Assembly (NCBI GenBank): GCA_963669155.1
Contig: OZ022576.1
Span: forward strand, 6,487,667-6,551,666
Origin: Arbacia lixula
Lineage: Eukaryota; Echinodermata; Echinoidea; Arbacioida; Arbaciidae
Direction: 5' to 3'
Length of the DNA: 64,000 bases
In this document: positions 1 through 28,600 of the stretch, piece by piece
Numbering within the stretch: position 1 is the first letter of the stretch
Layout of the letters: every line of letters begins with the position of its first letter
The notes under the pieces: generated by a model
The model's database searches: none
What the model was told of the DNA's origin: nothing
What the model saw: only the letters and a program-made list of their open reading frames with translations
Position numbers and translations under genes: made by a program

Positions 1-17
1 AAATCTGAGTAATATAC

Positions 18-257
18 CATTTGCTCTTGGTTGTACTGTGTAGCGTTGGTGTTGTAGGTCCACTCTTTCTCGATGTAGTACGTGTTCATTTCCATGGCTG
101 CCTCGTTATACTCCTCCAAGAAAACCTGGCAGTGCGTCTCGTTGCTGTTACTCCCTGGTATGGGTGTGTCTTCTGACGTCACATATGGCAAGAGAACGCC
201 CATCAGTACCACAAACATTGCGATGATCATACTTCCGACGAGCCTCTTACGGGCCAT
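18..257 (-). CDS. ACE: ACE-like paralog (left), exon 1, partial gene
   Basis: First coding exon of a third angiotensin-converting enzyme-like gene, transcribed leftwards off the window. The ATG at 257 opens 80 codons: a short basic start (MARKR), a hydrophobic signal segment (about residues 6-25), an N-glycosylation sequon (SNSNET), then the family's first helix ending YNTNATQYNQEQM. The frame is phase 0 and the donor is GTATAT. The same layout (sequon, VFLEEYNEAA-type helix, NTN-T-YNQ end, phase-0 donor) starts the two other ACE genes here. It resembles the plus-strand paralog (shared PGSN-NET) more than the neighbouring minus-strand gene. Only this exon is visible, so activity cannot be judged. 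Confidence 0.85.
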
Positions 258-1426
258 TATTAGAGGGCGATGTATCACGATGCGAGTGTCGGCTAGCTAG
301 CTGTGCAACGGTCGACATGGAGCCCGATTATGATAGATCAGTGGGTGAATCGAAGAGACCCAATAAATTTTTGGCGCAGAAATTGAATTTGTTGAGGGGG
401 GGGGGGGGGGTATATAGATCACCCTCTCCTAAACAAAATAAATTCGTACGTTTGTTCCATTGTGTTTGCTCGCGTGTGAGACAATATTTCTATTGGTATT
501 ACAGCTGTTTGTATGCTTGAACTTAATGTAGTGCGAGAATCTCCCGGGAAACCTTATGCATCGTCAGGAAGGCCACTTGGTCAAGGTGTGGTAGTTACAG
601 TGGCATTGACTCTTCGGGGCACAGCTTGCGTATTCCGCGCGCTGATCCATACTATGCACGCATGACAGCAAACAAGTTGGGTATGCAAATGGATGAGTAG
701 GGGGGGGGGCAGGGGGAGGGGTAGGGAGAGGGGTGAGGGAGAGGAGGAAGGGGGGGGGGGAGGAGGGTCATCGTACCCACAATTTCGCCATCAAGAACCG
801 TACAACATGGAAGGCTTATGTTTGATATTAGCACCGTAGACTATGGGCACCACCCCTCCAACAATCGTACTCAGAAGCACTCAGAAGAACACCAGAAATT
901 AAAAATCATGACATCTGTCACAATGTAGAAAGGAAACAAACCACTACTAAGCACAACACTCCTACATAGCCGCGACCTCCTTATATATCCGCCATATGCG
1001 CGCCATGCGCCTCTTGTCTGCACTAACGCTACCTTCTAGCAGGGACATGAGAGAGATCTGCTTCTAGTGAGCTCTCAAGCAGATGTTTTCGACCTCACCA
1101 TAACAGAAGGCCGAGAGCTGTGACCACACATACACCGTGGACATGTGGACGACTTTTGATTGATTCTTACAAGAGATTGAATTATGTGACGGCGGCTATG
1201 AATAGATGCTTAGTCGGTATATGATATTTAACCGGTATATAATGGGTTACGACTTTTCCTGTCACTGCTGTTTATTTCGGATTGATGTTGATTTTTCTTA
1301 AATGATGTGCAGGAGTTATCGATGTTTCAAATTTTAAGTCAGGACGTTCATCTTCCAAACAATATGCCCCATCAACTAATATTTGCATGGATGGCATGGC
1401 CTATCCTTGGTTGCGGTTAAACAACA

Positions 1427-3628: not shown

Positions 3629-3714
3629 TTAGAAGAATCTTCTCACGACCAGCAGGAGGGACAGGAAGATGGCTGCTTGTGACGGCTGCAAGCTCACTGC
3701 CGCAGAGTCGGGAT
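3629..3714 (-). CDS. ACE: ACE exon 13: hydrophobic C-terminal tail and stop
   Basis: Terminal exon too short to stand out as an ORF. A pyrimidine-rich acceptor (CTTCCCTTGGTAG) precedes it. It completes the split codon from exon 12 (G + AT = Asp) and encodes [12 protein letters not shown], then a hydrophobic run [11 protein letters not shown], then RRFF and TAA. The phase match and the likeness to the end of vertebrate ACE (a Pro-Asp-Ser / Val-Ser stretch, then a membrane anchor and basic residues) support it. The hydrophobic run is only about 12-14 residues, so a short membrane anchor or a GPI-type signal are both possible. A sense-strand ORF covering the same bases is its shadow. Confidence 0.7.
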
Positions 3715-6700
3715 CTACCAAGGGAAGCAGACGAGACGGATTCAATCTACAAGTTCAACGTAGCACTTGATGAATGACAAAGCTAGTAGTGACACCAGTT
3801 GGACATGATCTACACAAATCCAATCATTTTGTTGTGGACTACTATCATGTGTAGTATCCTAATTGGCTCGTTCATACATTTCATAATTATTGACTTGACC
3901 AGATATATATTTTATAAGATACCATATTTTTACAGGACGTAGCCACCATAAACATGTTAGTAAGACATTGCAATTAGGAAATTATGTTTCCAGTTGGGTG
4001 ATTTTTCAATCCCACGTTTTATTAGTGTTCCCATAATTGTTGTACCCTACGGTACGTATAGTGCACTAAACTTCTCAATGGCTTATTAGCATAGATAGAC
4101 GCACAGTTACCGTCACGTTGACTGACATTTTTCTCCTTATGTTAAAGATGGCGTATAAATGAGCGTATATGTTGTTCCCCTTGTTTCTTGCCGTGCTATG
4201 AATTTCACTGTTGTACAGGATAAATGTGTATTGCGGGCCAATTCATCAATGTATATAGGGTTAACGCCAGCCATGTCGGCCCTACCTGCCGGGGTGTAGG
4301 ATTCAGGCCAGCCGAGGACGTCGCCGTTCTTCTGATTCTCTTCCTCGAGGTACTCGATCAGGGGTTGGAAGTAAGCAACGAGGGCCGATGCGTTCATGGT
4401 TCGAGTCCCCGTGATGGCCTCCATCGCCTCGGGCCACGGCCTGCTGGAACCCATCTTCAGCATGTTCCTGTTCACAGTAACAAAACAGAAAAATACGGGG
4501 AGAAAAAGTCTCACAATAATGCATTAGCAATAGGGGTCGGGTAGGAGCGAGGTGGGGTAGGTTGGGAGCGTGGTAGGGGTAGGTTGGGAGCGTGGTAGGC
4601 TTAGGTTGGGAGCGTGGTGGGGGTAGGTTGGGAGCGTGGTAGGGGTAGGTTGGGAGCGTGGTGGGGATAGGTTGGGAGCGTGGTGGGGGAAGGTTGGGAG
4701 CGTGGTGGGGGTAGGTTGGGAGCGTGGTAGGGGTAGGTTGGGAGTGTGGTGGGGATAGGTTGGGAGCGTGGTGGGGGTAAGTTGGGAGCGTGGTGGGGGT
4801 AAGTTGGGAGCGTGGTGGGGGTAGGTTGGGAGCGTGGTGGGGGTAGGTTGGGAGCGTGGTGGGGGTAGGTTGGGAGCGTGGTGGGGGTAGGTTGGGAGCG
4901 TGGTAGGGGTAGGTTGGGAGCGTGGTGGGGGTAGGTTGGGAGCGTGGTAGGGGTAGGTTGGGAGTGTGGTGGGGATAGGTTGGGAGCGTGGTAGGGGTAG
5001 GTTGGGAGCGTGGTAGGGGCAGGGTAGGGAAGGGTGTAAACAGGGTGTGGTATGAGGCCGTTCAAAAGACCACAGAATGCCTCGGCAGCAATATGGCATG
5101 CACCACACATTTACGAAATCACATCAAAGGGCCTCTCCGGGAAGCTGACGGGCAAGTCCAACATGGTTTTATCAGTTGCTTTAAATGGGTGATGCTCGTT
5201 ACTGGAAGATTCGTTATTCAGACGATTCGTTATTACAAGAGCTCTTTATTCCAAAGGTTTGTTTGTCTGAAAATAAACTACGGTTCGATATACTGAAGAT
5301 TCGGTAACTCTGAGAATCACATGGGTCGAAGACGAACGTAAAATAGAATGGTCTCACCAAAACTGTCTCAAGTTAAATTGCAGTAAGACAGAGTTCCTTC
5401 ATGTTTCATCCCGTTTCAGAAATGCGACTCCAGTAATTCACTTGGATCTAGCCGGAAAGCAAATTAAAGCTACCAAAACATGTAGAAATCTTGGGGTAAT
5501 TTTCGACAATAAGCTTACATTTGACAATTTCATCACACAAAAATGCCGTTCAGCTTCGTTTGCACTCTACAAAATTGGTAAAATCCGTGATTTTATTGAT
5601 AGAAGTACAACTGAACGTTTGGTTCACGCATTTGTTATGTGTCATTTTGACTTCTGCAATAGTCTCCTTTTTCAATTACCACTTCGCCAAATTCAAAGAC
5701 TACAAACTATACAAAATTCAGCAGCGCGACTTGTTACACGTACGAGGAAACATGCTTCAATATCCCCTGTCTTACGTAATTTACATTGGTTACCAGTCCA
5801 GTCTCGCATTAAGTTCAAGATATTGTTATTAGCCTATGAATGTTTTCATGGATTAGCTCCTGCTTATCTAAATGACTTACTCACTGTATACAAACCAACA
5901 CGAAATCTTCGATCATGTAAAAAGAATTTGTTTATTGTTCCTCCTATAATTACACGAACATATGGTGAACGCTCATTTGCCCATGCTGCTCCAGTTTTAT
6001 GGAATAGCCTCCCTGACAGTCTTAGGAATATTAACACCCTAGATAGGTTTAAGTCTGCTCTTAAAACACACTTATTTCAAATGGCAAAATGATTTAAGGA
6101 ACTCAGTAACCTCATTTCTCTTTTTCTTTGCTCCTTGAAGCGCATAGAGACTTTCTTATGTATATGTGTTATGCGCTATATAAACATGGTTTATTATTAT
6201 TATTATTATTAATAGGGTTTTCTTATCCGATGTTGAAAAAACGGTTGGTTAACTCGAAAATTAAATCGGGCATGTTAATCCGAAACTGAAATCGGATTTG
6301 GTAATCAGAAATTTAAAAAGTGTTCGTTAATCCGAAATTGAAGAAAAGGTTGTTTATCCTAAAAAAACCCGGATACTTTACACCAAATATGGAATGAATT
6401 TCTTTTAAAAAATCTAAGGTGTAGTAATGGTCTTGAAGCAGGGTAGGAAATAGCGGGGGATTGGGCGATTTGATGCATTGGATTGTATAGCGGGTGAACT
6501 CACGCAAGAAGTGTGCCCGCTTCCGTTGATCGGTAGATGTCACATTTATGGAGAGGGCCGGTTTGTCCAGCCGCCTTACACAGTGACTCATGGAACTGGA
6601 ACTGAATCACGAAACTGATGAAATACCTGTTGTTCAGGTGCATAAAAAAACACAAATTGATATGATAGGATAAGGAAACCTTTTTCACTCATACTTGAAT

Positions 6701-9700
6701 ACATATGAATCATATGAATAAATAAGCGTAATTTTAGAATATCAATATAAAGCAGCTTATCCACATATTTCTTAATATCCAATAAATCGAGGAATTTCAT
6801 CATTACCCTCATTACTATGCAATATGTAATATAATAATCATTCCCAATAATATTATCATTTGATCATTATTGCCATTAGTATCATCATATAAGAAAATTT
6901 GTTTAAATCATCAATGTCATTGTTATCGACATGGTAACATGATCATGATCAAAAATTTCTTCTTTTGAATAATACTGTGTTTTAGGACCAACCCCAGATG
7001 TGAGGCTCATTAGATAGAATGTGAAATTGTATCAATTGTCAGACACATTAGATATAATGTGATATTTTACCTAATATAAGGCACGTCGGATGGAATGTGG
7101 TATTTTGCAGCAGGGTCGAAGTCGTCTTCCGTGCGTTCAACGGGAGGGATGATGCCTTGATACTGCAATCTGTAACAACAAAATATACACGGATATATAT
7201 TTAATTTATTTATCTACTATCAAATAAGTCGATACTTATCTAAATTAATCTATGCATTGATTAATTTAACAGTAACCATCTATAAGATTTCACACATTCT
7301 GAACTTTCATATCCTTCTTACAATGATAACTACACCCACTCTGACCCGACCAAACCAATTCCCATCCTGCCATCAGCCACACTCTTCCAACCATACCTCA
7401 CTCTCACCCTTCCTCATCCACTCCCAAACAGACAAACTCACTCCCACCTGACCACCATCTCGCACTAAACCATACGCACTCCTATCCCACCATAATCCAT
7501 TCCTACTCTTTATACCGACCACACCCATTTACAGCCAGGCGGCTATCAACCTTACTCGCACCTGACCACACTCACCCGACAGACCACGCCCCACTCCCAC
7601 TTGAACACACCAACACACATCCGACAACACCCAACACCAACTGACCATGCCCCACTCCAACTGACCTCGCCCCACTCCCATCTGACCACACCCACACACG
7701 TCCAACAACACCCACCTCCAACTGACCACGCCCTCCTCCCACTGACCACGCCCCACTTCCACTGACCACACCCTTATAGCGCTTACCTGAGTGCCCACCA
7801 GTCTGCGTTATACTTTTCGGGCGGGGTCGTCCCATCGAAGACTCTCCACCTCCACTGGTCCATCAGGTAGCCGAAGGGCAAGAAGGCAATCTTATCTAGA
7901 GCCATGCTCATCAAGAAATTCAGATCAGCCTCTGCAAGAAAGCCGACAAGACGTGTATATGAACTCCTTAAAAGCAAGACGAAATACTCGTCTAGATTAT
8001 TATGATTCGTTTGTTTACGAGAATGCTTGCACGTTATGCAATTTTAAACCTCAGTCCAGTGTGCAATGACGCATTACTTTTGTATTTATGTTATCGATTT
8101 TTTTTTTGTATTCGTGGTCCATTCATGGTCCAAAATTTACGTATCGAGTTTGAACGTGTCAGACCGAGGTCTAGCTGTCGGGATTTTGTTATCATGGCGG
8201 TAAAAAAATACGGCATCAGTGACAAATAATGAAGTACATTCTTTGGAAATTGTTACATTCTAATGTGGAATGTCCGTTTTAAAATAGTCTTGTAATTGTC
8301 GATCTTAAGATACTATGAAATTAATTCTTACTTGATTGACACTTAAAGATGTCCCGATGCTATTGTAATATCATCGTCATGCATCGCTTGATTTGTATGA
8401 GCAATTTGTAACAAATTATGGTTTGCGGAAGCTTAATGACAACATAATGACTAGTTAATAAAATTGACCAAGGTGAGCAACAAGTGAATAAAATGCCCAT
8501 TACAGCCCTTCCTCTTTCCCTCTCATTCTCATCACTATCACGGGATCAACAAATGTTCATAATGAGGAAAAATGACACCATGCAGAGGAAACAAAGAATA
8601 TGAAAAGCCACACATGTGCCCGCTAACTTGACATTAACATAAACGTATAAGTAATCATTCAGGCATATGAGATGGTATATCATTGTCACTGCAAAAAATG
8701 TGATTGACGGGAGTGCAAAATGGGTTCTCTACTATACCAACAATTGTCAAAGAAATAACGGCCCAAAAAAAGCAGACGTAGGAAATAATAATAACAACTG
8801 TGCAACTTCGGATAATTCACATAAATCGGCCATGCACATTGGTCTTTTAAAACAAATATTGACATGATTGAAAGGACTATCCTTCATACGTTTTTCGTAT
8901 CAAGAGACATATCAAATTTTAAATATCGAGTATTTCGTAAATTGGCAACTTTCAATTGCTAAAGACAAGAAAATACCTTTTGTGTAATAATCATGCATTA
9001 TACATTTCCATGGTCAAAGGTTAATCACACCATCTCAACCACTCTTAAGATGAAATTGAAATGAGCGATGTTTTCGATTGAGTAAAGAATTCTAAAGTCA
9101 CAAAATTAAATTAAATTTCCCTTCTAATCTGACAATACCAATACTGTTCGTGCATTGGAGGGAGGGGGCAGGGGATAGGGAAATCCTCTCTTAACTCCAA
9201 CTCACTACTAACACCCTTATCAGTCTCATCTTTCCGAAAAAAAAAACTCATGCATTTATACCGCGGTCATCCACGACTTCGTCCAGGAGCCCGACGGCGT
9301 AGAGATGAGCCGGTGTCGACACGGAGAGGGCTAGGACGTCGCCCACGGCCTCGTGGAAGCCCGGGTTGGCCCCTCGGCGGTACTTGACCGGGAGCTCTTT
9401 GTACTGGAGGTAGTACTCGATGTGGCCCATCTCATGGTGAATCGTAATGAAGTCGTCCATCGTGATGTCCGTGCATTGCTTAATTCTGGGCCGTGTTTAC
9501 ATACAGAGGACAGATTTACTAGAAATATGTATCGCTAAGCAATGTACAAAACTTACCTTCCTGATGCAACAACAGCGGGACATTTATGTTGTGTCATATT
9601 TCCATCTTGTTTTTATGAAATGGGGCGCTGTGATGCAGGTATTTTCGCACAACTACACCCGTTTGTTTTATTCCTACAAATGCGACCCATCTGGAACCCC

Positions 9701-12700
9701 CAAACACGCAAATGTCTTTTTACGAAAAGAGCAAAGTTGACACTTAATAAAATCCTGCTGTTATTGCATCAGTTTGAAGCTTTGAATATGCCGAACTGCA
9801 CGTACTATTTCTTAAGTGCAACTTAAATTTAATTGGGACTATAATGGAAACCTGCCAAGCTGATTTGGAAATGTCAGACGTTTCCATGGTAGTCGCAATC
9901 AAGTATTGTCAGTCGCAAATACTTTGGCCTTTTCTGTCTGAAGGTGAGTATATGGTTAGGGCTAATGTATTTGAAGGGATATTGAATGTCGCAAATGTTT
10001 GAATGAGTCATTGACAGAATGAGGAAGCGAAAGCTGAAATCTGGCTCGACGTGTTTGGATGTCGATCGGTGAGGTAAAGAAAGCTGTTTTCTTGTTTTTG
10101 ATATGTTTTTCTTGATATTTACATCCCATTTTCAATTGATAATATATCTTAAAGTTATACTCAATTAATCGATAATTGACTTTTCTCGGGAGTTGATATA
10201 GGCCTTTTACATAATGATTTTGTCATATATCCTACAAATTTCCTTTTTTTTTTTTCTCCCCCCCCCCTTTTTTTTTTTTTTTGGGGGGGGGGGGGGAGCG
10301 GTTGGGGATGAGGGCGAAATGCAACATCGCGATTTCAATTGATTTTGTGTCTTTTTATGCGTTAGAAAACAGCTTTCCGCGTTATGCATGAAGGATGTAG
10401 ATTGTTCATGGTGATGGCTGATTTGCGTGATGGGAAAGGCGGAGAAAAGCCTGCTAGATATTGTTAATACCGGGGTCGTCGACGTATTCATCTAGGAGAC
10501 CGACGGCTTCGAGGTGAGCCGGGGTGGAGACCGAGAGGGCCAGCACGTCCCCGACCGCTTCGTGGAAGCCCGGGTTGGCCCCTTCACGGTATTGCACGGG
10601 TAGGTCCTTGTATTGCAAGAAGTACTCCACGTGGCCCATTTCATGGTGGATCGTTATGAAGTCGTCCATCGTGATGTCCGTGCATTGCTTGATCCTGCGA
10701 TGGCACGTGACCGGTGGGGCGCGGTGTGAAATTAGTATAGGCAGGTACAGTAGGCATGCAGGAATATTAGTACATGCAAGGGGTTAGAAAAGAACGGGTA
10801 ATTGAGGATAAGTGACATGGAGGGGTGGATGTGATAGGCCTTGATTGGAGAAGACCAGGGGAGGAAGGGGTCGTAGAAACACAATGATCTCACCACGGAA
10901 CATGGGGTGTTAACGTTCATGAAGATTATATGTTACAGGAGATTAGAGGGAGACTTTCCCAATACTTTTCAAACCACGACAACAAGAAGGAACATAGGTG
11001 ATACTGCAAATCAATCAATGACACGTCTCCTATATAGGTACAACGAGTCACGTTCATTTCAAGCACCCCTAAGTATCAATATATTCGTGTGTTCTGCCTC
11101 ATGGCATAGTTAAATCCCCCGGTAACCATGGCAACCTACGATCTCCTTCTTATTTAAAGGAGATGCATAATGCTGAACAACCAACAATAACATCACGATC
11201 ACACACTTCCTTGATATAAAAATCAGGCTATTGTAGATATAAGCGACAAATACAAACTTCAAATATGAAACCATAAACACTAACTGTGCAAAATGTATAT
11301 ACGAAGGCATCAAAGCAGACAGACATATAGACCGACAGAAAAGGAAGCAGTGGCAGCAATTCAGTTGGCATAATATGTAAGTACAGAGAACCAACGTCGA
11401 CAATCTCAACTCTAAAATTTGACATTTCAACTATATAAATCAGCGTGCGTTTGAGTAAAGAAGCGAAACCACAACACCAATGACTTCCAATTTTCATGAG
11501 AAAAGTAAAGTAATATGTATTTTACAAACAAGTTTAAGACACAAAATCATAACAATAAGTCAGATAAATATGAAGACTACTACTCATAAAAACAACAATA
11601 GTTCATGGTTTCGACAAGCACCTGGCAGCCATGGCAAACTGACATGAGACCATGAAGACGACGAGATTACAAGCGACAAACACCGCCATGGGTCAAATGC
11701 ACAACTATATACAACACACAAAAACGGCTGTTAATGACAACAGTAAACACCACAAGGAGCATGACCACGACTACCACAACCCACACATGACGCCTGTACC
11801 TCGATCATCCACCACCTCGGGCAGGAGCTCGATCGAGTGGAGATGGCGAGGTGTGGATACGGACAGAGACAGCGCGTCCCCCACGGCTTCGTGGAAGCCC
11901 GGGTTGGCGCCGGTGCGGTAGATGAACGGCTGTCCCTTGAACTGCATGAAGTACTGGATGTGGCCCATCTCGTGATGGATGGTGATAAAGTCCTCCATGT
12001 TAACCCGCGAGCACTGGGTGATCCTTTGGGATGGGGTAGTGTGGGTGGGTGAGTTCGTGGGTGGGTGGGTTGGGTTAGGATGGAACGAGTGGGCAAATGG
12101 ACCAGGGCGCTGAGTTACATGTATAGCAGCGAGAATGAATGATCTAAATGAGGTAATTGTCCTTCTTCGTAATGTATTCACAACTTTCCTCCTTACTGCG
12201 AAATAACGCGTTATGACAGTGGCATGTGATTCAGTTTCAATTGGTGGAATGAACTCTGAATCTGTTAGTTGTTGCTATTCGAGTAAACCTCCGACAAGCT
12301 TGTGGTTGGAATCAGTAACGCATTGTTTGAAAGACCATGCACAGATTTGCATACATAACGAAAGTAGTCTATTCAACGAACGTTCCCCAAAATTGCCGCA
12401 GTCGCCGTTCCCCTTCCTTGACTTTTACTAGCCTCTCACATTTTAGAGTCTTCACAGTTCAACTGCAGTGCGTGCTTGTTCGCGAGGGTGGAGGGTGCCC
12501 TTTTGATCTGCAATGTAATTCCAGTAATGCTTAAAGATGGCCCGTCCCTTTTAAGAACATCTGCAAACTTCATGAAAGTTTGCACATATTCAGCACATAT
12601 CTTTGGGATACCAATTGTGAACTTTTAAGGTCAGACATAATATAACTCTCGTAGAATAAATAAAAATCAAACTGATTTTCACTGAGATTTGACTATTTTT

Positions 12701-15700
12701 GTGGTACGAAAAAAGAAAGCTCGATCAATCATCGAAGATGATTTCCTCAAAACCGAATATTACGCTTTGTCGATTCCAGGAAAGTTTGATGACAAAGTCA
12801 GGGAACTTTCAGAATTAGGTCTGCAAAAGAGGAGGGCTACCTTTAAAGGACTCTATAATCATACCGATATGCAATAATTCTTGAGACTGGTGGAAGTTGT
12901 TTGCGGATTGCCATACCGTAAGCAACATATTGCATTTCTGTATAAAAGGGCTCACTAAGGATTTTATACTTCAGTTTACACGTGCCGGTCATCACAGAAT
13001 GAGGATGCATTATTTTAACTCCTTTTGTGTCAGGTGCACATTATGCGCAAGTGGCATGAGCGTGTAGGCCTCTTACTAGATCAGAATTGCGACAGTGGTA
13101 TCCAATGGGTTAAATGTTAATAGTGATATGTGCCCAATGTCCCGCAACGCCCCTCTTTATACTATGCGTTAGTAAAATGAATATCTCCATGTAAGCATGT
13201 GCACTCATGTAGTAATAAGTAGTCATGAAAATAGACTTTCGCAAATGAAGGCCGCAGCACATACACAAATAGATAACAAACGTACATGTTATACAAATAA
13301 TGAATGGTTATGAGTGCAATGGACAAAATATTTCATGAGGTGAAAGATGAAAAGATCCAATCAACGATTTCAACGATGCGTAGCAGAGTTGAATGGATCA
13401 TTCATTTCATCTTTCATCGAATGAAATATTATGTCCATTGCATTCATTATTTGTTTTATATGACAAATTAGGTTATAGGTAGGTCGCGGTTCGCTTACAC
13501 AAGAAACGCGAGTACCAGTGGTCTCGGCGAGCGTGCAATGGACAATATCGTATGGATCCAAAATTGCACGATGAATGGATCTAAAATTGCACGGTTGATG
13601 ACGCCATTGTAAATAAACTGAATGATCGATATCAAACAACCAATCAAATGACAGGGATCTATCTAGGTGTCATATAAATACAAATATCGAGCAAGGACAA
13701 TAGAGGAAGGCATTTTAGATAATTGATTGTTAACACCTTGATTACACATACCTCCTAAAACGTACTTTGGTGGGAGCAGATGATCGTAACTGGGCTGAAA
13801 ATGTACTTCTTGTTTTAGAGCAGTCGCTACCATTTATTGCACTACTTAAACTTTAAAAGGATACTATATGACCTGACCTTCGTGTACTGTTGAAGTGAAG
13901 AGGTCATACTTATTTTCGATTCTTAAGCGTCTAGGACAGCTAGGTAATCATTAGGGATATCAATCTCCAGCCTTCTATTCGGTTCGATGAAAATGTTTTT
14001 AAACACCACTTCTTATGCCAATTTATTCTATTTATTTGTATTTTTATTTTCAACACTGATGGAATATTCCAATCATTACTTTGATTTCTGTAAAATCTAT
14101 AATTACAACAAAAAGCATATACCTACGTGAAACCACGTACCCGGACAATGTGTTGAATGGCGTCAATCAATTATTTAGCATTTATAAATATCAACTAAAT
14201 CTATGCTTTTGCCAGAAAACACGTTTCATTTGCGTCTTTACAGATTGTTGAGAGGCACTCACACGGAAAATCTCTGCCACAGCCGTTTATTTCACGCGTC
14301 TCCGCTACAATACAACAATGACTCCCTTGGCCCAACGGCATTTACACGCTTAAAGGTCCCCTGTCATCAAAATATATGTCGACTTATATTGATGCAACAT
14401 AATATGTACATAACAAAATCACTAACTGTTCAATGGAAATATGTATCCTATCTTTCAAAATGAATTTTTTTAATTTTTTCTCAGCACTGATAAGCCCCGC
14501 CTCCAAAATATCCCCCAACTCAAGATTCCTCCTGTGACATCATGAAAGGTAGAAATTAGCAGGATAATAAGCAGAATTTATGCACAAATTAAACATTGCA
14601 ATGACTACCTCCACCTGCCCACAAGAGCATCACATGTCTTCACACAATACAATATAACAACCTTTCATGTGGGCATAATCGTTTCCTTATGTCAGAAATG
14701 TGCTAGCTAGGTGATGCTATTATAAGCACTTGCAGATAGTCATTGCAATGTTTAGTTTGTGCATAAATTATGTTCATTGTCCTTCTAATTTATGCCTTTG
14801 ATGATGTCACAGGGTGAATCTTGAGTTGGAGGATATTTTGGAGGCGGGGCTTATCAGTGCTGAGAAAAAATAAAGAAAAATTATTTTAAAATATAGGAAA
14901 CATATTTCCATGGAACAGTAAGTGATTTTGTTATGTACATATTATGTTGTATCAACAGAAGTCAACATACATTTTGATGACAGGGGACCTTTAAGGTTAG
15001 GAGAAGTAATGGTTCATTATTACTGGACCAGTATCGATAAAGTGCCATTGAGCAATGTCCATGGGTCCCATTCTTGTTTGATTTCGTAATTTCAGGATAG
15101 CAGGAGATTACATAAAAATTCTGCCGTGATTACGGCCAATAATTATTAACATATCTATCCGTGGCTTTTAGGGAGGATCAATTGCCTTGCTTTGCCATGG
15201 TGCAGTCACATTGTCGTCAAACCGTAGGCAAGCCGTTTCCGTATGAGTGCATCGATGCCAAACTGCGGGGTTCACGTTTTAAGGTTACATCTACTTTGCG
15301 GACACCCCTCACCCCTTTCTCCCCCTCTTTCATATCCGTACCTGAAGTCGATCGTGTTGTAGAAGTCCCAGGCCGAGGCGTGGCAGACGACGTCGCGTCC
15401 GTCGTCGGGCCGCTCCAGCATGGACTCGTTCCAGAACTCGACCGGCATTTCGATCAGACCGAGGGAGGAGAAGAATTCGTCGGAGACCTCGAACATTTGC
15501 TTCGGCGTGTAACCCTGTGTGGTGGGGTTTGGAAAAAAAAAATCACGTGCCACCCATATTAAAAGGAAGGGCATGCGAACACTTTTGGGCTAGACAGTTT
15601 TCCATATTAGGGCATTCTAAAGTGCTTTCATGTATTAAATTAACACATGGAGAAATCTCCTCAAAATTATAATTTTATCTCAATCATATACATTGTATGC

Positions 15701-16839: not shown

Positions 16840-19810
16840 GGTGGTGGTGGTGGGGGGGGGGGGGTGGAGGGGGGCGGGGAGGGGGGGGGGGGACGACAAG
16901 TTATGGCAAAAAGCAGAACAGGTGAACTGGGTTTGCCTCATTGTATGCTGCTATAGAGCACCGAATTGGTGTCGTCATATGAACATGTTGTCAAGACAAT
17001 TGGCTCTTAACAAACTCACTCCAGTGAGAGGTTCAGCTGTCCGATATTGTCTATCGGGCAAGTGTCCGGCATTCCAAATTACAGTCCCCGTTGTGATCAT
17101 CGCTGCTTGCTCTACCCGTGTTGTTTAGAACCAGTTGTCTAGACAATAATGCTCAAACGACGTCACACTTCGGTACTCTATTGTAAAAACAGTTTTGAGC
17201 TTACCTTTTCTACTAAGACTGGAGTTATATCCACGCTCGGGCTGTCAGGGAACGGCTCACACAAGTTGTACAGCTGCAGCCAAGACTGAGCCCACATGTT
17301 ACCTATATAGCAGGGATGAAAACAAAGTGGTTCGCGAACCACGAGTCTCGCCTGATTTCGCAATCGATACAAAAATATATATTTTTTCATAAAATTTAAA
17401 ATGGGGCCGAGATTACCTTTGACCTCATCATCCTCTTCAACACACGTGGTATTACCCAAGGATAAATTGATGCAGAAATAACAAAAAATGAGAGGAAGTT
17501 AAACCAAAACTGTAAGAACAAGCCCCTGCAAATCTGAGCCAAGTTTGATCTGACCTGAAATAAAGAAAAAAACTTAAAAACTGATGGACATGGCCTCATA
17601 TCATTTGACCCTTTGACCCCATCATTTTCATGAAGACACATGTGGTATTACCCAATGGTCATTTGTACCAAGTTTGATCATAATTGATGCAGAAATAAAG
17701 AAATGAGAGCAAGTCAAACGAAAACTTTGAGAAAATTGATCCACATGACCTCATATTATTTGACCTTTTGACTTCTAGATGACCTTTGACCCGATCATCT
17801 TCATGACGACACATGTGGTATTACCCAAGGATCATTTGTACCAAGTTTGATCACAGCTGATGCACAAATAAAGACATGAGAGCAAGTTAAACAAAAACAG
17901 ACCAACAGACTAACATACTAACAGACCAATAGGAAAAGTGATTACTTGGTCTCTGCCGAACTTTGTTCTGGCGAGACAAAAAAAAAAACATGCAACTGGT
18001 TATTGATGGCACACATTTTCGGGATTGGGGATTAAAACAGTTGACCAAAACTCGAGCAATGCACGAATGTCTTTAATCAGACACAAGGTGGCGCCAAACC
18101 CCATTAGCGCTTTTTGTACTAGACCAAGTGCTACTTAATGCTACTTCTGTCTCTTTTTAGCGCACAATGCAATAATGGCGCATAACGAGTTAATGTCATA
18201 TGCAATGGTTCAGAACCTGCAAATCATTTGTGACATTTTTCGCTCTATTAGCATGATACACAACAATAAGCCACTTCGTAATTACAATTTGCGCATGAGC
18301 AGATTATTGCTGGTAGAAAATGGCCTCAGGTCAATTTCACTACTCATAGAGCAAAATGTGAATTCATTAGATAGTCGACCACATTTCAATCTATTATCAT
18401 GTAAATATGGCAACAACTATTCAGCTCTGCGTAGGTAGTTAAAGAAAATTCCACCATGCGCATCTTTTTCTACTGTTGTTCCGGGCACACTGTACAATGT
18501 ATTTACATCAATCATCCAACACAGCTTCATAAAAAAAAAACCCAGACAGCAGTCTTATAGTATTTATTCAGTGGATTGTCCGACCATGGTGCAATTACGA
18601 ACTGGTCCATTGCAATGAATTGATATGTCAGTAAGTATGGAAGCAAGGCTAGTTAATTGATATCATCATTGTTTGTTTCACGCGTGATTTCAAAGGTGAG
18701 TCAAGGTTGCTTCATTGGTTATCACGAGGCTTCAGTTTAATAATATGGACTTTATATCTGTATATGGCAGGATTCGTAGATAAACAGATAAAGGTGGATT
18801 CCGCAATTGCGCCACAAATCTATAATTGTCTCACTGATATGTATGTGGCGCTGCATGATAAAAATGATAAAATGTTTTCACTTATTGTTAGTATTCCTTT
18901 TTCATTTATTCATAGCCATGTGATAAAGGTTCACCTTTAAACTGTTATATTTGTCATCTCTATGCGATTCTAGTGTCATAATGACAATTTGACTGCTAAG
19001 AAATCTCTTTATGTGGCGTATGTAATGATAAGAGAGCGAAAATATGGTTTGATGCAAATTCGAGGAATATGATAGTAGTGATCCAAAGTATGAAATCTGC
19101 ATGTGTCAAATGTCGTCTCACCTTTTGTTGTTTTCATTGAACCGTTGAATACTGACGCGGATATCAACTATCAAACTTTAAGCTTTGATATTGTTTTATG
19201 AGGGTTCGTCAGCAGCGAATTGGAGAAACGCCTAGCAGCATGCTACTTATCTCATCTATCGCAAACAAGCTCTCGGCGCCCCGGCTGGAAGGTAAACATA
19301 GTAATGCAGATAATAAAACACTTCTGCGCGCCTTTTTACCAGATAGGTATTTAGATTTGGCTCTCGCGCAATTAATTTCATGTATGGACATGTCTAATGG
19401 TTGATGCTCTCAGTTTGTGTCACAACAACATATAAATACATTAGTATCGTGTCTTGAATGAGCAACTTTTTACTGCGGCAAAATGGTGCACTCATACATT
19501 TTCCCTTGTGCGGAAGAGTGACGTTATGTGTTCATAAAATGGCGTAGACAAGAGTAAAAGAATGTGGGATTGTCGAATGAGGACGGGGGAGTCAAAACTT
19601 TCAGACATGTGGACTGCACCAAAACGCACACACGCACACACACACACACGCACGCACACACACGCGCGCACGCATACAAACACATACGCACACACATGCA
19701 CACACACAGACACACACACACACGCGCATACACACACACACACACACACACGCATACACAGACACACACGCATACACAGACACACACGCATACACACACA
19801 CACACACACG

Positions 19811-19845
<35 letters not shown>

Positions 19846-22800
19846 AACTCCTCCGTTCAGTGAGTTATTTCATTGTGTAATCATTCATTATACTTCAGTA
19901 TTGTCAGGCATAGTACTATAAGAGGGTGTAGAATATAAATAATTTTTGATTTAACGCATCACTTTTTGCAGCAGTAAGGTGCCGAATGCTATGTTGTACA
20001 AAAGAAATACATATTTAAAAAAAAAATCGTACACATAATGTATGTGAATAATAACTTACGCCCCTAATAAAAAAAAGTAAAAATAAACAGATGAATAAAA
20101 CTAACGATGTGTAATCATTCATTATGCTTTTAATGATATGGTACTAACAGGGTTAAGAATAGGAATGTGTATACGCATCACCGTTTGCAGCAGTAAGATA
20201 CCGAATGCTATCTTCTAAAAAAGAAATTTTAACAATTCGTATACTTAATGATGTGAATGGTGACTTTCGACCCCCCCCCCCACAAAAAAAAGAGACTAGA
20301 AAAAAAAAAGATTTTAAAGAATATTGTGTATCTTTGATCTTCACCGACGTAGATAAGCACAGTATGTTCAGTGTATTTGAGTCGGTGTGATTAAAAAATC
20401 ACAGACGGACTCGGGTGGGAATAGAATCCACAACCTCCTGATTACTAGATAAACCTGTATGGTAATCAGGAGGTCGTGGATTCGATTCCCACCCGAGTCC
20501 GTCTGTGATTTCTTAATCACAGTGACCCACGTGCTCTGAACATACGGTGCTTATCTACGTCGGTGGAGGGCAAAAATTAAAAAAAAAAAATATTTAAAAT
20601 GATACATCCCGGCGCAAAACAAAAACAACCTTTATATAAAAAAAAAGAGATTACCACCACATATCTGGAGGTCGACCTACCCAAGATGTGCGCCGGGATG
20701 GGTCCCCTCAGGTTGATAAATCTCTCTCCGTAGACGTTGTATAGCTTCCTCCGGACATAGGCGTGCAGGTTGTTGTAGAGAGGCGACAGCTGATCGTACA
20801 GCTCCTCCACCATCTCCTCCAGGTTATCTACCTCGTACCATGACCGCCAGTAAGCACCGTTGTCTGGCTGGTCTGCACACAAAGAACAACCAAGATTCGA
20901 ATTCGATTTGATTTGATTTTTTTTTTTAATTCATGTCATTTTGATGTGATATGATTCTATTCGATCTCAATTTTATTTCTTTCGATGTGATTAGATTTGA
21001 TTCAATATAACTTTTTGTTTTATTCATATTTGATTATTTTGTTGAAATGACTTAATTTGAGTTAGTAAGTTCCTGCATTTCACATGTATGTATGTATCGA
21101 CAAGTTCACGAGCATAATTTTAACATACATGCAATCGTAACACTATCGCAGTATCTCTTTGATATTTATATGATTATGGATGCAAAGACATTTGAGTTAT
21201 GTAAGTTAGCCGAAATTAATCTTGGTGCATAGTACAAGAACCTTGATCAAAGATATTAGTACTAAACCTTCATAACAATGGATATACGACTTTTATTACA
21301 TGATACTTGTATCACTAGTTGATGACACATCCCTATATCAACAGTGCATGTGCTATTCCTGTATTGTCCCTTAGTTATTTAAGGAAACAAGCCGTGCTCT
21401 GTCTCTCTTCTGGTATGATAATTGATATCTCAGAACTTAACTGTTGTTTTTTGTGATGAAAGTAATGAAGTGATTAGTTAAACAGTCTTTTAAACGGTCA
21501 CGTGACCGACTCCGACCGTATCAGTTACTCAAAGCTAGAACAAAAGTCACGAGGTGAAATCGATAAACAAATGATCAAATATAGGTCATGGCGCCCAACA
21601 CCTCGTATTATCCCTTACAACCAAGGCGTCTGTATCTTCAAAACAAATACTATTTATCAACAATGGCTCCTACAAATGGCACTTCCAAATACGGCTTATG
21701 TGTGAACTCTGATCTCCTAATGACCGCCTGGTGCTGTTTAGTGCTGTCTTTGAGTTTGCCAGCTTGAAGTCATAAGAGTCATGGTCATCTGCGCCTCTGT
21801 GTCCCGTGGCTTTGACGTCACTTCTATATTTAGGTCAACGTAAAGATATCTGTAACAAAGCCTTTTTTTTTTTATTCCGTATTAAATAAACTGTAATTTT
21901 TTAACAGTTCCTTCTTACCCTTTACCTTTTGGGCAGGTAATGAATAGCAACATTATACGATCTTGTATGGATTCTTCGGAAACATAAACACACAACCAGG
22001 GTATCTAAAATAGAGGAAACCTCATCAAAATTGTCGCTTTCCGAATTGCGCGATGACTAGTTGATCTTCTTTTTTAATCTTTACTTTTGCATTTCCTTAT
22101 CATCGCATTATTCGATCAATTTTGCTCTATGCATATAAAAAAAAAACCCGCAAAAGATCAAATGACGTACTAATAGCATAGGTACTTGTACAGAACACGA
22201 TAACGAATTACGGAATCTATATCGCATCATTCACTTTGCTACATTTTCGGGCGGATATTTTTTTCTTCAGAAAATGGTGTACATTCACACACTGTTGGTA
22301 CTTCATATATGAAATGAACCGGTATAGGCTAGAAAACAGCAGATTTTAGACTAACAGAACCATGTCGTACACCTGGCATGTTGAGCATAATGTTTGTTCC
22401 CCATCATGCAATCAGACTGATGGTGCTTTGTATGCCACCAATATTGTTAACAAGCAGTAGAATAGTTGATCTTTATTTGAAAGTGTAATATAGTTCTAAA
22501 TATGTTACTATAATAACATGTTACTATGTTAGTATAATGTTACTGTAATATAGTTGACACACGTCGTACTCCGAACATGCCGAAGATCGGCATATTAACT
22601 CATTCTGCACCACCGAAAATCCTGCTTGATATCACACACCTCGCGATACCTTAATAGACTTTCATACGGGAGCTGAGTCAACGGGCTGCATTGCCGCAAG
22701 CTACGGACATGGCACCCTAAACCTCTGTATTAAGCCATTCTGCGCTTCACGAAATGTTGCTCCGTGTATTACGGGCATAAGAATTGCGACATAAGCATAT

Positions 22801-25589
22801 AAAGAGTTAACCATTTCTCACCATGACGAATGTAAAAATATCCGTTCACGTGCATACGTGTATTGGGTTTTTGGAGCGACTCGCTATTAAAGGCTTTGAA
22901 GTAATACTTGAACCATTGTCCACGAGTACTAGCCGAGACACGCTAAGTATGCTTGACTGCGTGAAGTGTTGTTGGATTCAACAAATCTCGAGGCGTCGTG
23001 ACCCGCTAATGGTTCGAGTCTTGAAGTATGAAGTTCGTTATTCATACCAGCCATGTCGATTCATTTGGGCTTAATGTCCAACAGCAAAGTGATTCGAAAG
23101 GGGAGCAGATTGGCGCAAGTTAAGGACACGATGATGACGAAGAAATTTGATTAGAAGCAGAAGACTAACGAATATAATGATTTAGAATGGGAGGAAGAAG
23201 AAATAGAAGGAGAAGAAGGAAGAGAAGAAGAGAAAGAAGAAGAAGAAGAAGAAGAAGAAGAAGAAGAAGAAGAAGAAGAACAAAGAAGAAGAAGAAGAAG
23301 AAGAAGAAGAAGAAGAAGAAGAAGAAGAAAAGTAGAAAAAGAAGAAGAACAAAGAAGGAGAAAAGAAGAAGAAAAAGAAGAAGAAGAAGAAGAAGAAGAA
23401 GAAGAAGAAGAAGAAGAAGAAGAAGAAGAAGAAGAAGAAGAAAAAGAAGAAGAAGAAGAAGAAGAAGAAGAATGATTATGTGAAGAACATAAAGCGGAAT
23501 GCTCACCCCCAAAAGGGAAGAGGAGTCCATTGTCTAAGAGGAACAAAACCGAGACTGTGAAAAAAATATCCCCACAAATATAAAAATCCGTTCAACAAAT
23601 TACCATTGGCTTGAGCAGCGATGTTCTTGAGCTCCACGTATCTAGTGTAATCTTCACGGGCTGGTGCCCCGACAGTATCACGCCATGAATCCCATGCCCA
23701 GTACAGCTCGCTGTAATCCCGCGACTCTGCCATGATGCGCGTCAGATCTAGGCAACGTGGATGAAGGAGGAACCACATTTCAGTGATGACACAAATGATA
23801 GTAGTGATGATAACGATGATGATGATATAGTTTGAAATGTATAGACGAACGAATGGGGAAAATAATAAATAATAATAAATAGTTAACATACTATCATTAT
23901 AGTTTCATCAGCATTATCATCATCATCATCATCATTACATATCAACATCATCAACATCATCAGTCATCCTCATTATCTTAACATCTAATCTTTTCTTATC
24001 TAAACATGATCGGCACCATTATAGTCAATTCATCACACATCATTAAAATGATTACCATCATTATAATCATCATCATCATCACACATCAAGAATACAGTAT
24101 GAATGATCACCATCATAATCAGCACAATCATCAAAACATCGAAAACCATCGAAAACATAATTGAAATAACTAGTGCTACTCTACCATGTCTACCTCTGCA
24201 TGCATTTGCATTCCTACACGCAGAATCTTGTGCAAGGGAGCAGGGGAGGGGGTGGGGGGGGGGTTGGACCCGCCTCCTCTTTTCCATCCATTAGTCCCAG
24301 TTAGCATGTACATGTTCAGTGTTTAATGTTCAGTGTTTTATTTTCTGGCACCCTGTCAAAGGGTATTGACGAAAAGCAAATATAACACAGTAGGGCCTAC
24401 ATACATAAATACATACACATTTATACGAAACATATACCACAGCATGGATGTACAATATAAGGAAAATAATAGATAATATGAATAAATAGGAATTACATTC
24501 ATCACAAATTTCAAATCGATTAGAAATATTAACTTTTGAAAAAAAAAAGAAATACATTGAAATGATTACAGTATTATAATCGGTCGTGTCAACTTAATGT
24601 TCATACCTAAACACAACAACAACAAAAGTAATCCCCCCCCCCCCTCCCCTAAGCAAAATAGTATAACTTTTGATAGAAAAGGTCTTGAGAAATATAATTT
24701 GGCAGGAATGTTTTTGTAACGTATTGACTAACTTCCGTGTGAAAATCGCATTAATCCACACAGTCACGCATTACTGAGCACACATTAAAGGCAAAATTGG
24801 CATTTTTCACAAGGGTAATTTTGAGATTCTGTCATCGAAATGTTTAATTAATTCCATTTCTGGTGCATAATTTATGTCCTTCCATTGTTTTTTTTCATCC
24901 ATCTCTGGATGCACTAATATCTATCCCAACACTTAATCCCTTGTGCTGGTTTAGTGAGCACAATTTAACAAATACCCATTCCTCTTGAGTTTGAAATTTT
25001 TAAAAACCCTTTATTTTTGTGAAATATGAAACTCTAGATATTTTGACAAAGATGTAACATGACCTATTATTTGAACATAAGAAGTCATTTTCGTGTCATA
25101 GTTAAGTGAATACACTTTAAAAATTGTACAAGAGACGCCAAGAGTTAAGAAACAAAAACTGTTAAAACGGCAGTAACAATCACCCTTGTGACTTTTGGAA
25201 AATGACAATTTTGCACTTAATATGTGCTCACTCAAGCATGACTAATTGGATTAATGTGATTTTCACACGGAAGTCAGTCAATAAATTAAGAAACAATCCT
25301 GCCAAATTATTTTGCTCAAAACCTTTTCGATCAAAAGTTATGCTATTAGGGGGGAACTTATTTTTTTGTTGTGTTTATATTAAACCTGAACTAAAATCTG
25401 ATACAGTATTATATAAGAAGTAAAACTGCTATAAAAGTCCGAATAAATTATGTAAATGAGGAGGTGGCCATATAGAAACCCGGCCTGGTGGACCCTATGG
25501 AGATAATGACCTAGGGTAATGCTATCATTGCACGTATTGTTCCGTACACTGAACATAGGTTTGACACATACAGTGTTCTAAACCAGCAT

Positions 25590-25624
<35 letters not shown>

Positions 25625-28600
25625 GGGGGGGGGGGGCAATAAAACAACATGAACCATTGTTATTGACTCAATATGATGCAGTTTGTCCTTGTCCGGTGAT
25701 GAATATCAATGACTCTGTGACAGCATCAGATTTTGTGCCCCATATAGTTAGTCTAGGTCTAGTACACCGTTGTGAATTAAATTTCAACCACCGCTACTGA
25801 TAAGACCATCACCATCACTATTACTCCCCAACACCATCATCACCACACTGTCATCACCAAAGCTACCATCACCACCACAAACACCGTCACCACTACGAGC
25901 ACCGCCATCGCCCACATAATCATATCTAAAGTATATCCACTATCACCACCAGCATCATCACCGCTATGACCACCACCAACAACATCACTGTCACTACCAC
26001 CACCATCACCGCCACAATCATCGTTACTATCACCATGACTACCGCCACCATCTCCACGATGACCATCATCACTAATATCATGATAACCACCGCCACCGAC
26101 ACCACCATTATCACTACTACAATCACTGGCACCACCGCTACCATCACCACCATTATCACTACTACAATCACTGGCACCACCGCCACCATCACCACCATTA
26201 TCACTACTACAATCACTGCCACCACCGCCACCATCACCACCATTATCACTACTACAATCACTGGCACCACCGCTACCATCACCACCATTATCACTACTGC
26301 AATCACTGCCACCACCGCCACCATCACCACCATTATCACTACTACAATCACTGGCACCACCGCCACCATCACCACCATTATCACTACTACAATCATTGCC
26401 ACCACCGCCACCATCACCACCATTATCACTACTATAATCACTGCCACCACCGCCACCATCACCACCATTATCACTACTATAATCACTGCCACCACCACCA
26501 CCACCAACATCGCTACCACCACCACCACAATAAGCACCACTGTTATCATCCTCCTAGGCATTAGTCTTCACCTGGTTCCAGGGAGTAGCAGACGCCGTCC
26601 TTGCAGGGCTTTCCAGTTGAATAACGTGTCTCCATATTAGCTAGAAGATTCGTTAGCTGCAGGAGTAGATTCAGGAAGAAAGAAAGTGGGCAATTACGTC
26701 ATCATTCGATTTTGAGTTTGTAATATATCGTTTACTCAGTCACTTGAATGCTAACGCTCCAATTAGAATAATATTAATAAATAACAATAATTAGAAGGGA
26801 ATTATATAATGATAAATCAATCAATCAGTAGGATTAGAATTAAATTGAAATAAATTACAAAACTAACAAACAAACAAAACAAAAACAAAAGTAAAAACAC
26901 TTTATAGGTCTGTATCATCAGCCCTTTAAAGAGTGGTAACGTAGAAATCGAAAACGGCTAATTGTATTGACATTCGTAATACCACCACATCACATAAAAT
27001 GTACCAGTATACACTGTACTTGCTACTGGCTATGCATGAATATACAGGGGGGAAATGTTTATAAAGTCTACCCCAAACATGTAAAGGGAAACCGAAACAG
27101 TCGTGTTCTTCGACAAGCGACTTTATATATTTGTATATAGACGGTGGAAATTACATTTCAACTACTCTGAAGGGATTCAAGACCAAGTCGTGCAAGTCGA
27201 TTAGTCTATAAAAAAGTTACTTTATAGATAATTGTCTTTGTAGACAAGTTTGTCTGTGTTATCAAAATCGCGTATTACCTCGTCCAAGTCGGCTGGGTCT
27301 TCCATCGCGGCATCACCGACGTAGACGAGTTTGTCGAGTTGTCGTTTGGTATCTTCGGAGAACCCGGTCTGATTAAAAGCCCTTGCCTGCTCCATCATAT
27401 CCTTCTCAAAGGCAGCTACAGCTATGCTTGCTGCCACCTAGAGAATTAACATATATTCAAATCTTAATATACCTTATAATATTCCACGTTTGTAATGTGC
27501 GTAGACGTATACGACATATCGGCTGGCACCATTTATATTAATTTCAATTCTAATGATTAAAGTGTCATGATTGTCTATGTTTAATGTTCAATGTACCCAG
27601 GGCCTCCGGGGAGAACAGTGCTTTGCTTACTGATGGGGATACCCTGGGAAAAGAATACGGAATGAATGAATAACTTAACGAGACAACTAAAATAGATTTG
27701 AGCAATAAATGAAGAAATGATGTAATCGCTTTGTCATTATAAAAGCAGGTGCGTGAGTTCGCCTCTGCATGATTGAGATATGAAGAAAGACGATACAGTC
27801 ACAGGGTTACTGCATGCATTCACGCTAGTATATTGCACAGTATGTAAGTCTTGAAGGCTGGTGTCAATTTGTTTAAGACAGTGTTACATATCCTCCTGAG
27901 CAGCTACGTACATGTATATAGCGACACACGGAATCGTGATATGTTAGAACAGTTTATTATGACATGTAGACGTTTTACATGCAAACAGCTGTCATCTTAA
28001 ATCCCACAAAAATAACAATGACTGCGGGCGGGATGTCACGAGTTTTGAGTTTCAATATTTTTTTCGTTTGAACACAAAAATGACGCGTTTAACTACAAGA
28101 GCAGCAAAGCAAAATAAACATAGCAAACATAACAACTGACAAGAGATATACAGATCCAACTCAAGGAGCAATTATTAATTCATCTGTTTGTTTGTTCGCT
28201 TTTTTTTTCTCTCTCTCTTTTTTTCTTTTCATTCCCTCTATAATAAAAAGGGGGAAGGGGTGGTTGAAGTTGACTTGTGTTGAAGTATTCTGGAAGCGCT
28301 CAGGCCAGGAAAGGAACTCTTACTTTTCTTCAATAAGGGAACCCTAGTTTTTCTTCACAATGTCGTATAATAATTGGCGTTTGCCCTCTCCCCTCACCTC
28401 CCCATCCCAGTTCCTCCCCCTTCGTGTCACTAACTATCACGATCATAATAGTTTCATGTCAAAAGTATGATGTTTTGAAAGATGGCATGATCAAGAGTAA
28501 AGAGGGCAATTATCCCCTGACCTCCTTTGTAATTGCAATAATCGCTCTTACAACTTCGCTCTTCTGCAAACGTGATCACGTATAGTACTAGTATTATTCA

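Follow-up and report, generated by a model that had tools for sequence, protein, structure and literature searches.

Human somatic ACE carries two active sites, held in one chain by domain duplication, and Drosophila AnCE is a single-domain ACE for which, to our knowledge, no alternative catalytic exon is known. In Manduca serpin-1, splicing picks the specificity-setting part of the protein on a fixed scaffold. Insect serpin-1 genes have alternative reactive-centre exons (PMC10513286), and mutually exclusive clusters such as those of Dscam and srp consist of tandem exons, alike in length and sequence, of which one enters each mRNA (PMC6071210). The two human ACE sites differ in the S2 pocket, which holds Tyr369/Arg381 in the N-domain (nACE) and Phe391/Glu403 in the C-domain (cACE), and the pair reads Phe375/Thr387 in AnCE (PMC12025037, Table 3; the human residues also in PMC3875237). 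A gene that brings these themes together lies in a 64-kb stretch of the 607-Mb genome of the sea urchin Arbacia lixula (contig OZ022576.1, positions 6,487,667 to 6,551,666; called the window below, with positions counted from its first base). In this single-domain ACE gene the exon encoding the catalytic zinc site is present in three tandem copies, 8a, 8b and 8c. The copies differ at the S2 residues that set ACE domain selectivity, a point that goes beyond an earlier sequence-only reading of the same DNA. On sequence grounds, we consider it very probable that the array is a mutually exclusive exon cluster that swaps the ACE active site and, in doing so, probably tunes its S2 specificity.

The array would apply a known kind of gene organization, the mutually exclusive cluster, to the ACE catalytic zinc site. 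The locus resembles human somatic ACE in offering both of its S2 types, and differs from it in that the human sites share one chain whereas the alternatives of the Arbacia gene are exons of a single-domain enzyme. With AnCE it has in common the single-domain build and, through exon 8a, the S2 pair. Unlike clusters of the Dscam and srp type, it would exchange a peptidase zinc active site, and pairing between docking and selector RNA elements is not convincing here. Unlike serpin-1, where an inhibitor loop is swapped, it would replace a catalytic zinc site. No ACE gene with alternative catalytic exons was found among the titles and abstract openings listed in a literature search whose coverage lacks most subscription papers.

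Three copies of the catalytic exon

The three copies sit between a single exon 7 and a single exon 9 (Table 1), each entered in phase 2 and left in phase 1, and it is exon 8 that encodes the HEMGH and GFHEAVGD motifs. The sequence-only reading had placed three 224-nucleotide (nt) copies in this interval, and its coordinates, phases, AG acceptors and GT donors are exact; the full zinc site that it reported for each is likewise present (His361, Glu362, His365 and Glu389 in 8a, 8b and 8c, in the human N-domain numbering used throughout). Its further claim, that no other ACE exon is repeated and that a plus-strand ACE paralog has one exon 8, is borne out by tblastn with the gene's own protein, which found exon 8 three times and the other 11 exons once each within the gene, and a single exon 8 in the plus-strand paralog. 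A second exon-1-like match, at 6-152, is where the next ACE gene begins; the remaining minus-strand matches have E values of 4.5 or worse. A repeat search returned one three-copy family of 234 nt (9255-9488, 10464-10697 and 11793-12026), whose members are the exons extended by a few bases. The introns measure 3318 nt (7-8a), 1105 nt (8a-8b) and 985 nt (8b-8c); four measured paralogs have 316 to 527 nt of intron separating exon 7 from exon 8.

Because 224 is not a multiple of three, inclusion of one copy alone keeps the reading frame. The joins 7-9, 7-8a-8b-9, 7-8b-8c-9 and 7-8a-8b-8c-9 all hit stops, and among the joins tried a protein was obtained from the one-copy joins alone; 7-8a-8c-9 is predicted from its length to break the frame as well. 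In the mechanism proposed, duplications in a single-domain ACE gene would have given its catalytic exon three tandem versions. One of them would be spliced between exon 7 and exon 9, and any count other than one would break the frame.

The most similar pair, 8b and 8c, is identical at 182 of 224 nt and 66 of 74 residues, compared with 162 and 51 for 8a and 8c and 151 and 49 for 8a and 8b, and each copy matches ACE chains in the Protein Data Bank (PDB), with best E values of 4e-58 (8a), 4e-65 (8b) and 1e-65 (8c). Between 8b and 8c, the NG86 estimates are 0.076 for nonsynonymous divergence (dN) and 1.07 for synonymous divergence (dS), a dN/dS of 0.07. When gene A, the closest paralog, serves as outgroup, 21 changes can be assigned to the 8b branch and 10 to the 8c branch, of which 15 and 8, respectively, are in third positions; 10 further differences between the two cannot be placed on either. 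Where 8b, 8c and gene A agree, 8a differs at 10 of 25 third-position sites versus 15 of 128 first- and second-position sites, its raw private counts by codon position (7, 8 and 10) not being skewed alone. Neutral simulations started from 8c reached the 66/74 identity of 8b in 0 of 20,000 runs and the 51/74 identity of 8a in a fraction of 0.0002. These values indicate that the copies are kept by purifying selection. The mutually exclusive use suggested by the sequence-only reading is thus supported by the shared exons 7 and 9, the equal length and phase, the frame logic, the purifying selection and the single-copy neighbours, and from anatomy and selection we infer that all three copies would be used in transcripts.

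The gene as a whole occupies the minus strand from 44198 down to at least 4286, and 12 exon positions with AG/GT sites join into an open reading frame of 611 residues. In a PDB sequence search, the best matches of this model were two-domain ACE chains, and it matched the two domains of ACE chain 9clx, which we take to be two-domain human ACE, at 739.7 and 761.1 bits. The Pfam family Peptidase_M2 (PF01401) was matched over its curated cut-off by 8a, 8b and 8c and by exons 4, 5, 7, 9, 11 and 12; exons 1, 2, 3, 6 and 10 are absent from the above-cut-off list of this profile search. Exon 7 carries a CHASAWDF motif and a 14-residue motif is split over exons 10 and 11, both active-site motifs of ACE. 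The matches place the gene in peptidase family M2 (ACE), with a predicted peptidyl-dipeptidase activity.

S2 residues and predicted specificity

The S2 pair, positions 369 and 381, reads Phe/Thr in 8a, Phe/Glu in 8b and Tyr/Arg in 8c, matching AnCE, cACE and nACE, respectively. Common to all copies are the HExxH ligands, the catalytic Glu, the third-ligand Glu and the S1' residues Ile357 and Thr358; position 354 is Glu in 8a and Asp in 8b and 8c. Positions 369 and 381 are among the 8 of 74 residues at which 8b and 8c differ, and the probability that both S2 sites fall among these eight is 0.010. In human nACE carrying the two substitutions Y369F and R381E and no others, the Ki of 33RE rose from 11 to 2794 nM and 33RE selectivity fell from 1006-fold to 4-fold (PMC7148434). 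Compared with the single-domain PDB chains among the best 60 of 179 matched sequences, 8c is closest to wild-type nACE (120.4 bits, versus 114.8 for 6TT1, an engineered S2_S' nACE mutant), 8b to 6TT1 (116.8 bits, versus 115.0 for the wild type) and 8a to AnCE (107.1 bits, versus 101.0 for the C-domain).

Swapping the copies probably tunes the S2 specificity of the enzyme, and we infer that the isoforms would differ in specificity. Each would have its own S2 pocket alongside identical zinc ligands and the active-site residues that exons 7, 10 and 11 supply to all of them, such that splicing would pick substrate or inhibitor selectivity within a fixed enzyme frame.

Candidate splice-choice signals and competing explanations

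RBFOX controls mutually exclusive exons in two genes of C. elegans whose products are unlike ACE: unc-32, which encodes a proton-pump subunit, and egl-15, which encodes a growth-factor receptor. In egl-15 an upstream-intron UGCAUG represses an exon, and in unc-32 a UGCAUG in intron 7b steers the choice (PMC3585155). In the Arbacia array the motif is a sequence match, a candidate RBFOX site. On the transcribed strand, the four array introns contain eight TGCATG, versus an expectation of 2.4 at the motif's rate in the stretch from exon 1 to exon 7 (P 0.003) and of 2.8 in Markov sequences (P 0.010); the other strand of 7932-15341 has two, one of them inside exon 8a. Three lie within 100 nt of the copies (P 0.0026 from first-order Markov sequences, for a motif picked after inspection), whereas the other 11 exons, with 22 flanks of this size, have none. 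Fifty-four hexamers occur at least eight times in the array introns, and three of these, TGCATG included, also reach three occurrences near the copies. RBFOX sites upstream of an exon favour skipping and those downstream favour inclusion (PMC5840707); with two motifs upstream of 8b and one downstream of 8c (Table 1), an RBFOX-type regulator would, by this rule, be predicted to suppress 8b and favour 8c. RBFOX-type control of the array is a hypothesis from candidate motifs, and we offer as a tentative possibility that a tissue-specific factor of this type toggles between the N-domain-like 8c and the C-domain-like 8b, with the AnCE-like 8a as a third choice, yielding by splicing the two substrate selectivities that in vertebrates reside in a pair of fused ACE domains.

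Two other causes of exclusion were considered and set aside: the donor sequences of the copies (Table 1) differ from the U12-type consensus, and the introns between the copies are too long for steric exclusion by a short intron. A pairing scan drew attention to a G-rich stretch early in intron 7 (Table 1). For the best docking candidate, pairing energies with three introns are -30.6 kcal/mol or stronger, better than in 5 of 5 block shuffles; this site was picked from the scan, and among 148 background stretches about 1 kb long, 10% do equally well. Docking in intron 8c-9 was outdone by 1 of 12 block shuffles; for docking in intron 7-8a, over its first 1330 nt, none of 5 did better. A G-rich stretch also follows exon 7 in 1 of 11 paralogs examined, a gene on C14 with a single exon 8.

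Several points weigh against a specificity-tuning cluster of mutually exclusive exons. The synonymous sites of 8a are saturated, and constraint on this copy is therefore measured less well. The S2 match to three known types was noticed post hoc; the edge of 8b for 6TT1 is 1.8 bits; and when the five subsite positions of the table (PMC12025037) that lie inside the exon are taken together, the probability of at least two hits is 0.087. Among the 13 HExxH exon-8 sequences of the genome, position 381 ranks second and 369 eighteenth in variability over 68 positions, the HExxH paralogs having the S2 pairs F/R, F/G, Q/A, F/A, F/E, Y/T, Y/T, Y/G, F/D and Q/D, and paralog D also has Phe/Glu. The high variability at 381 weakens the argument from coincidence; it can also be read as a dial turned by gene and exon copies alike. 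As to splicing, the tests on donors and motifs were post hoc choices, TGCATG is mildly enriched across the window (56 versus 41 expected, with 2 of 100 shuffles as high), and the scan of the array introns against shuffles and background disclosed no convincing RNA docking-selector system.

A rival account, which we judge unlikely, is that one or two copies are used and the others are relics that still look intact. The donors of all three are weak, matching the consensus at 5, 5 and 4 of 9 positions (5 to 8 in the 11 other exons), and 8a is the sole exon of the gene with an AAG acceptor, the others having CAG or TAG. Weak donors are common in regulated exons. Against relics stand three open copies with zinc motifs and splice sites intact despite high synonymous divergence, the third-position bias on each branch, and protein identities of 66/74 and 51/74 that are unexpected for relics at such nucleotide distance. 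It is also quite unlikely, in our view, that the array works equally as an on/off switch and as a switch of specificity, mRNAs with a double exon 8 or none being frameshifted and degraded; the zero-, two- and three-copy joins tried do all reach stops and weak donors would permit skipping, but such a switch leaves unexplained both the three diverged yet constrained proteins and the changes at S2 residues. Tandem arrays are a usual site of assembly errors, and a haplotype or read-error duplication might be suspected. The copies, however, differ by 19 to 33% in DNA, the introns between them are unrelated, their 60-nt flanks are identical at 12 to 21 of 60 positions (about chance level), and the array, which lies inside a 55.6-Mb contig, has no second place among the matches found; because exons and introns alike have diverged, an assembly error is very unlikely and a duplication made in assembly was rejected. 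Finally, the clustering of ACE genes (9 of 12 on the window's contig, seven of them within about 135 kb around the window) could suggest that the extra exons are parts of other, partly deleted ACE genes, a hardly credible account given that tblastn finds no other ACE exon between exons 7 and 9, that no other exon is duplicated, and that the genome holds 12 exon-7 matches versus 14 significant exon-8 matches.

The ACE family and the origin of the array

The search behind these counts, which are lower bounds, covered the 607-Mb genome, and its 15th exon-8 match has an E value of 3.4. Twelve ACE genes have both exons, 11 of them with one exon 8 and the window gene with three, so that the two exon-8 matches in excess of exon 7 lie in the window array; a partial ACE locus at C9:11.45 Mb has no match to either exon. 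The family of about 12 genes is spread over C1 (the window's contig) at 6.47-6.61 Mb and 1.04-1.08 Mb and over C9, C14 and C22. Genes A and B (C1:1.05 and 1.07 Mb) are recent copies, with an exon-8 dS of 0.115. The next ACE gene starts at window 1-296 on the minus strand, extends to C1:6.473 Mb and has one exon-8 match. The exon 8 of a paralog at C9:4901691-4901894 reads NNLLGH instead of HHEMGH, without one zinc ligand and the catalytic Glu, and likely belongs to an inactive homologue; paralog F (C1:6594599-6594820) has Gly where the other HExxH exon-8 sequences have His388, beside the third zinc ligand.

In an exon-8 tree, 8b and 8c are sisters (support 93/92) and group with genes A and B (75/86), with 8a outside, a single clade of 8a, 8b and 8c not being rejected (approximately unbiased test, p 0.133). 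In a tree of the other exons, the window gene splits off ahead of the plus-strand paralog and of genes A, B and C (88/86); trees that group it with A and B (p 0.065) or else with the plus-strand paralog and C (p 0.067) are not rejected. The C9 paralog was left out of both trees. Taken at face value, these topologies would make the split of 8a from 8b and 8c older than the splits of A, B, C and the plus-strand paralog. The S2 pair is F/R in gene A and F/G in gene B. With gene A as outgroup, 8b and 8c would each have changed one S2 residue since their split; because gene B reads F/G, the earlier state of 381 is uncertain.

Elsewhere in the window, a short minus-strand reading frame at 3632-3740, with a 15-residue hydrophobic tail at its end, is a possible last exon with a membrane or glycosylphosphatidylinositol anchor. 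Intron 11 contains a minisatellite (window 4533-5023, 22 copies of a 22-nt unit), and intron 7-8a an inverted repeat (window 14349-14995) with 285-nt arms that are 88% complementary and spaced by 77 nt, perhaps a foldback transposon remnant. Rfam gave no match in the window at gathering scores.

Table 1. Exons of the ACE gene and candidate splice-control elements, in window coordinates
Feature	Position	Strand	Basis
Exon 1 (start codon, N-terminus)	43989..44198	-	exon joining
Exon 2	27279..27437	-	exon joining
Exon 3	26572..26656	-	exon joining
Exon 4	23604..23747	-	exon joining
Exon 5	20681..20872	-	exon joining
Exon 6	17205..17302	-	exon joining
Exon 7, single copy, phase 2 at end	15342..15514	-	exon joining, tblastn, genome search
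G-rich tract from nt 17 of intron 7; weak candidate for a docking site, potentially pairing with C-rich tracts close to the copies	15304..15325	-	pairing scan
Exon 8a, 224 nt, acceptor CCAAAG, donor GTACAG; S2 Phe/Thr (AnCE type)	11800..12023	-	sequence
Two TGCATG, beginning 84 and 66 nt before 8b; candidate sites of repression by RBFOX	10755..10778	-	sequence match
Exon 8b, 224 nt, acceptor TCGCAG, donor GTATTA; S2 Phe/Glu (human C-domain type)	10471..10694	-	sequence
Exon 8c, 224 nt, acceptor GCCCAG, donor GTATAA; S2 Tyr/Arg (human N-domain type)	9262..9485	-	sequence
TGCATG with its first base 8 nt past the end of 8c; candidate site of activation by RBFOX	9249..9254	-	sequence match
Four more TGCATG, same intron (8c-9)	8992-8997, 8831-8836, 8579-8584, 8378-8383	-	sequence match
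Exon 9, one copy within the gene	7787..7931	-	exon joining, tblastn
Exon 10 (shares active-site motif with exon 11)	7071..7169	-	exon joining
Exon 11	6504..6626	-	exon joining
Exon 12, last placeable exon of the gene	4286..4467	-	exon joining

ACE is a major drug target, and the division of substrates between the two human sites is still studied by mutating these same S2 residues. If the array is indeed a cluster of mutually exclusive catalytic exons, the Arbacia gene would provide a natural test of which residues set ACE selectivity, with the rest of the protein held constant, and exon duplication and domain duplication would have solved the same problem.

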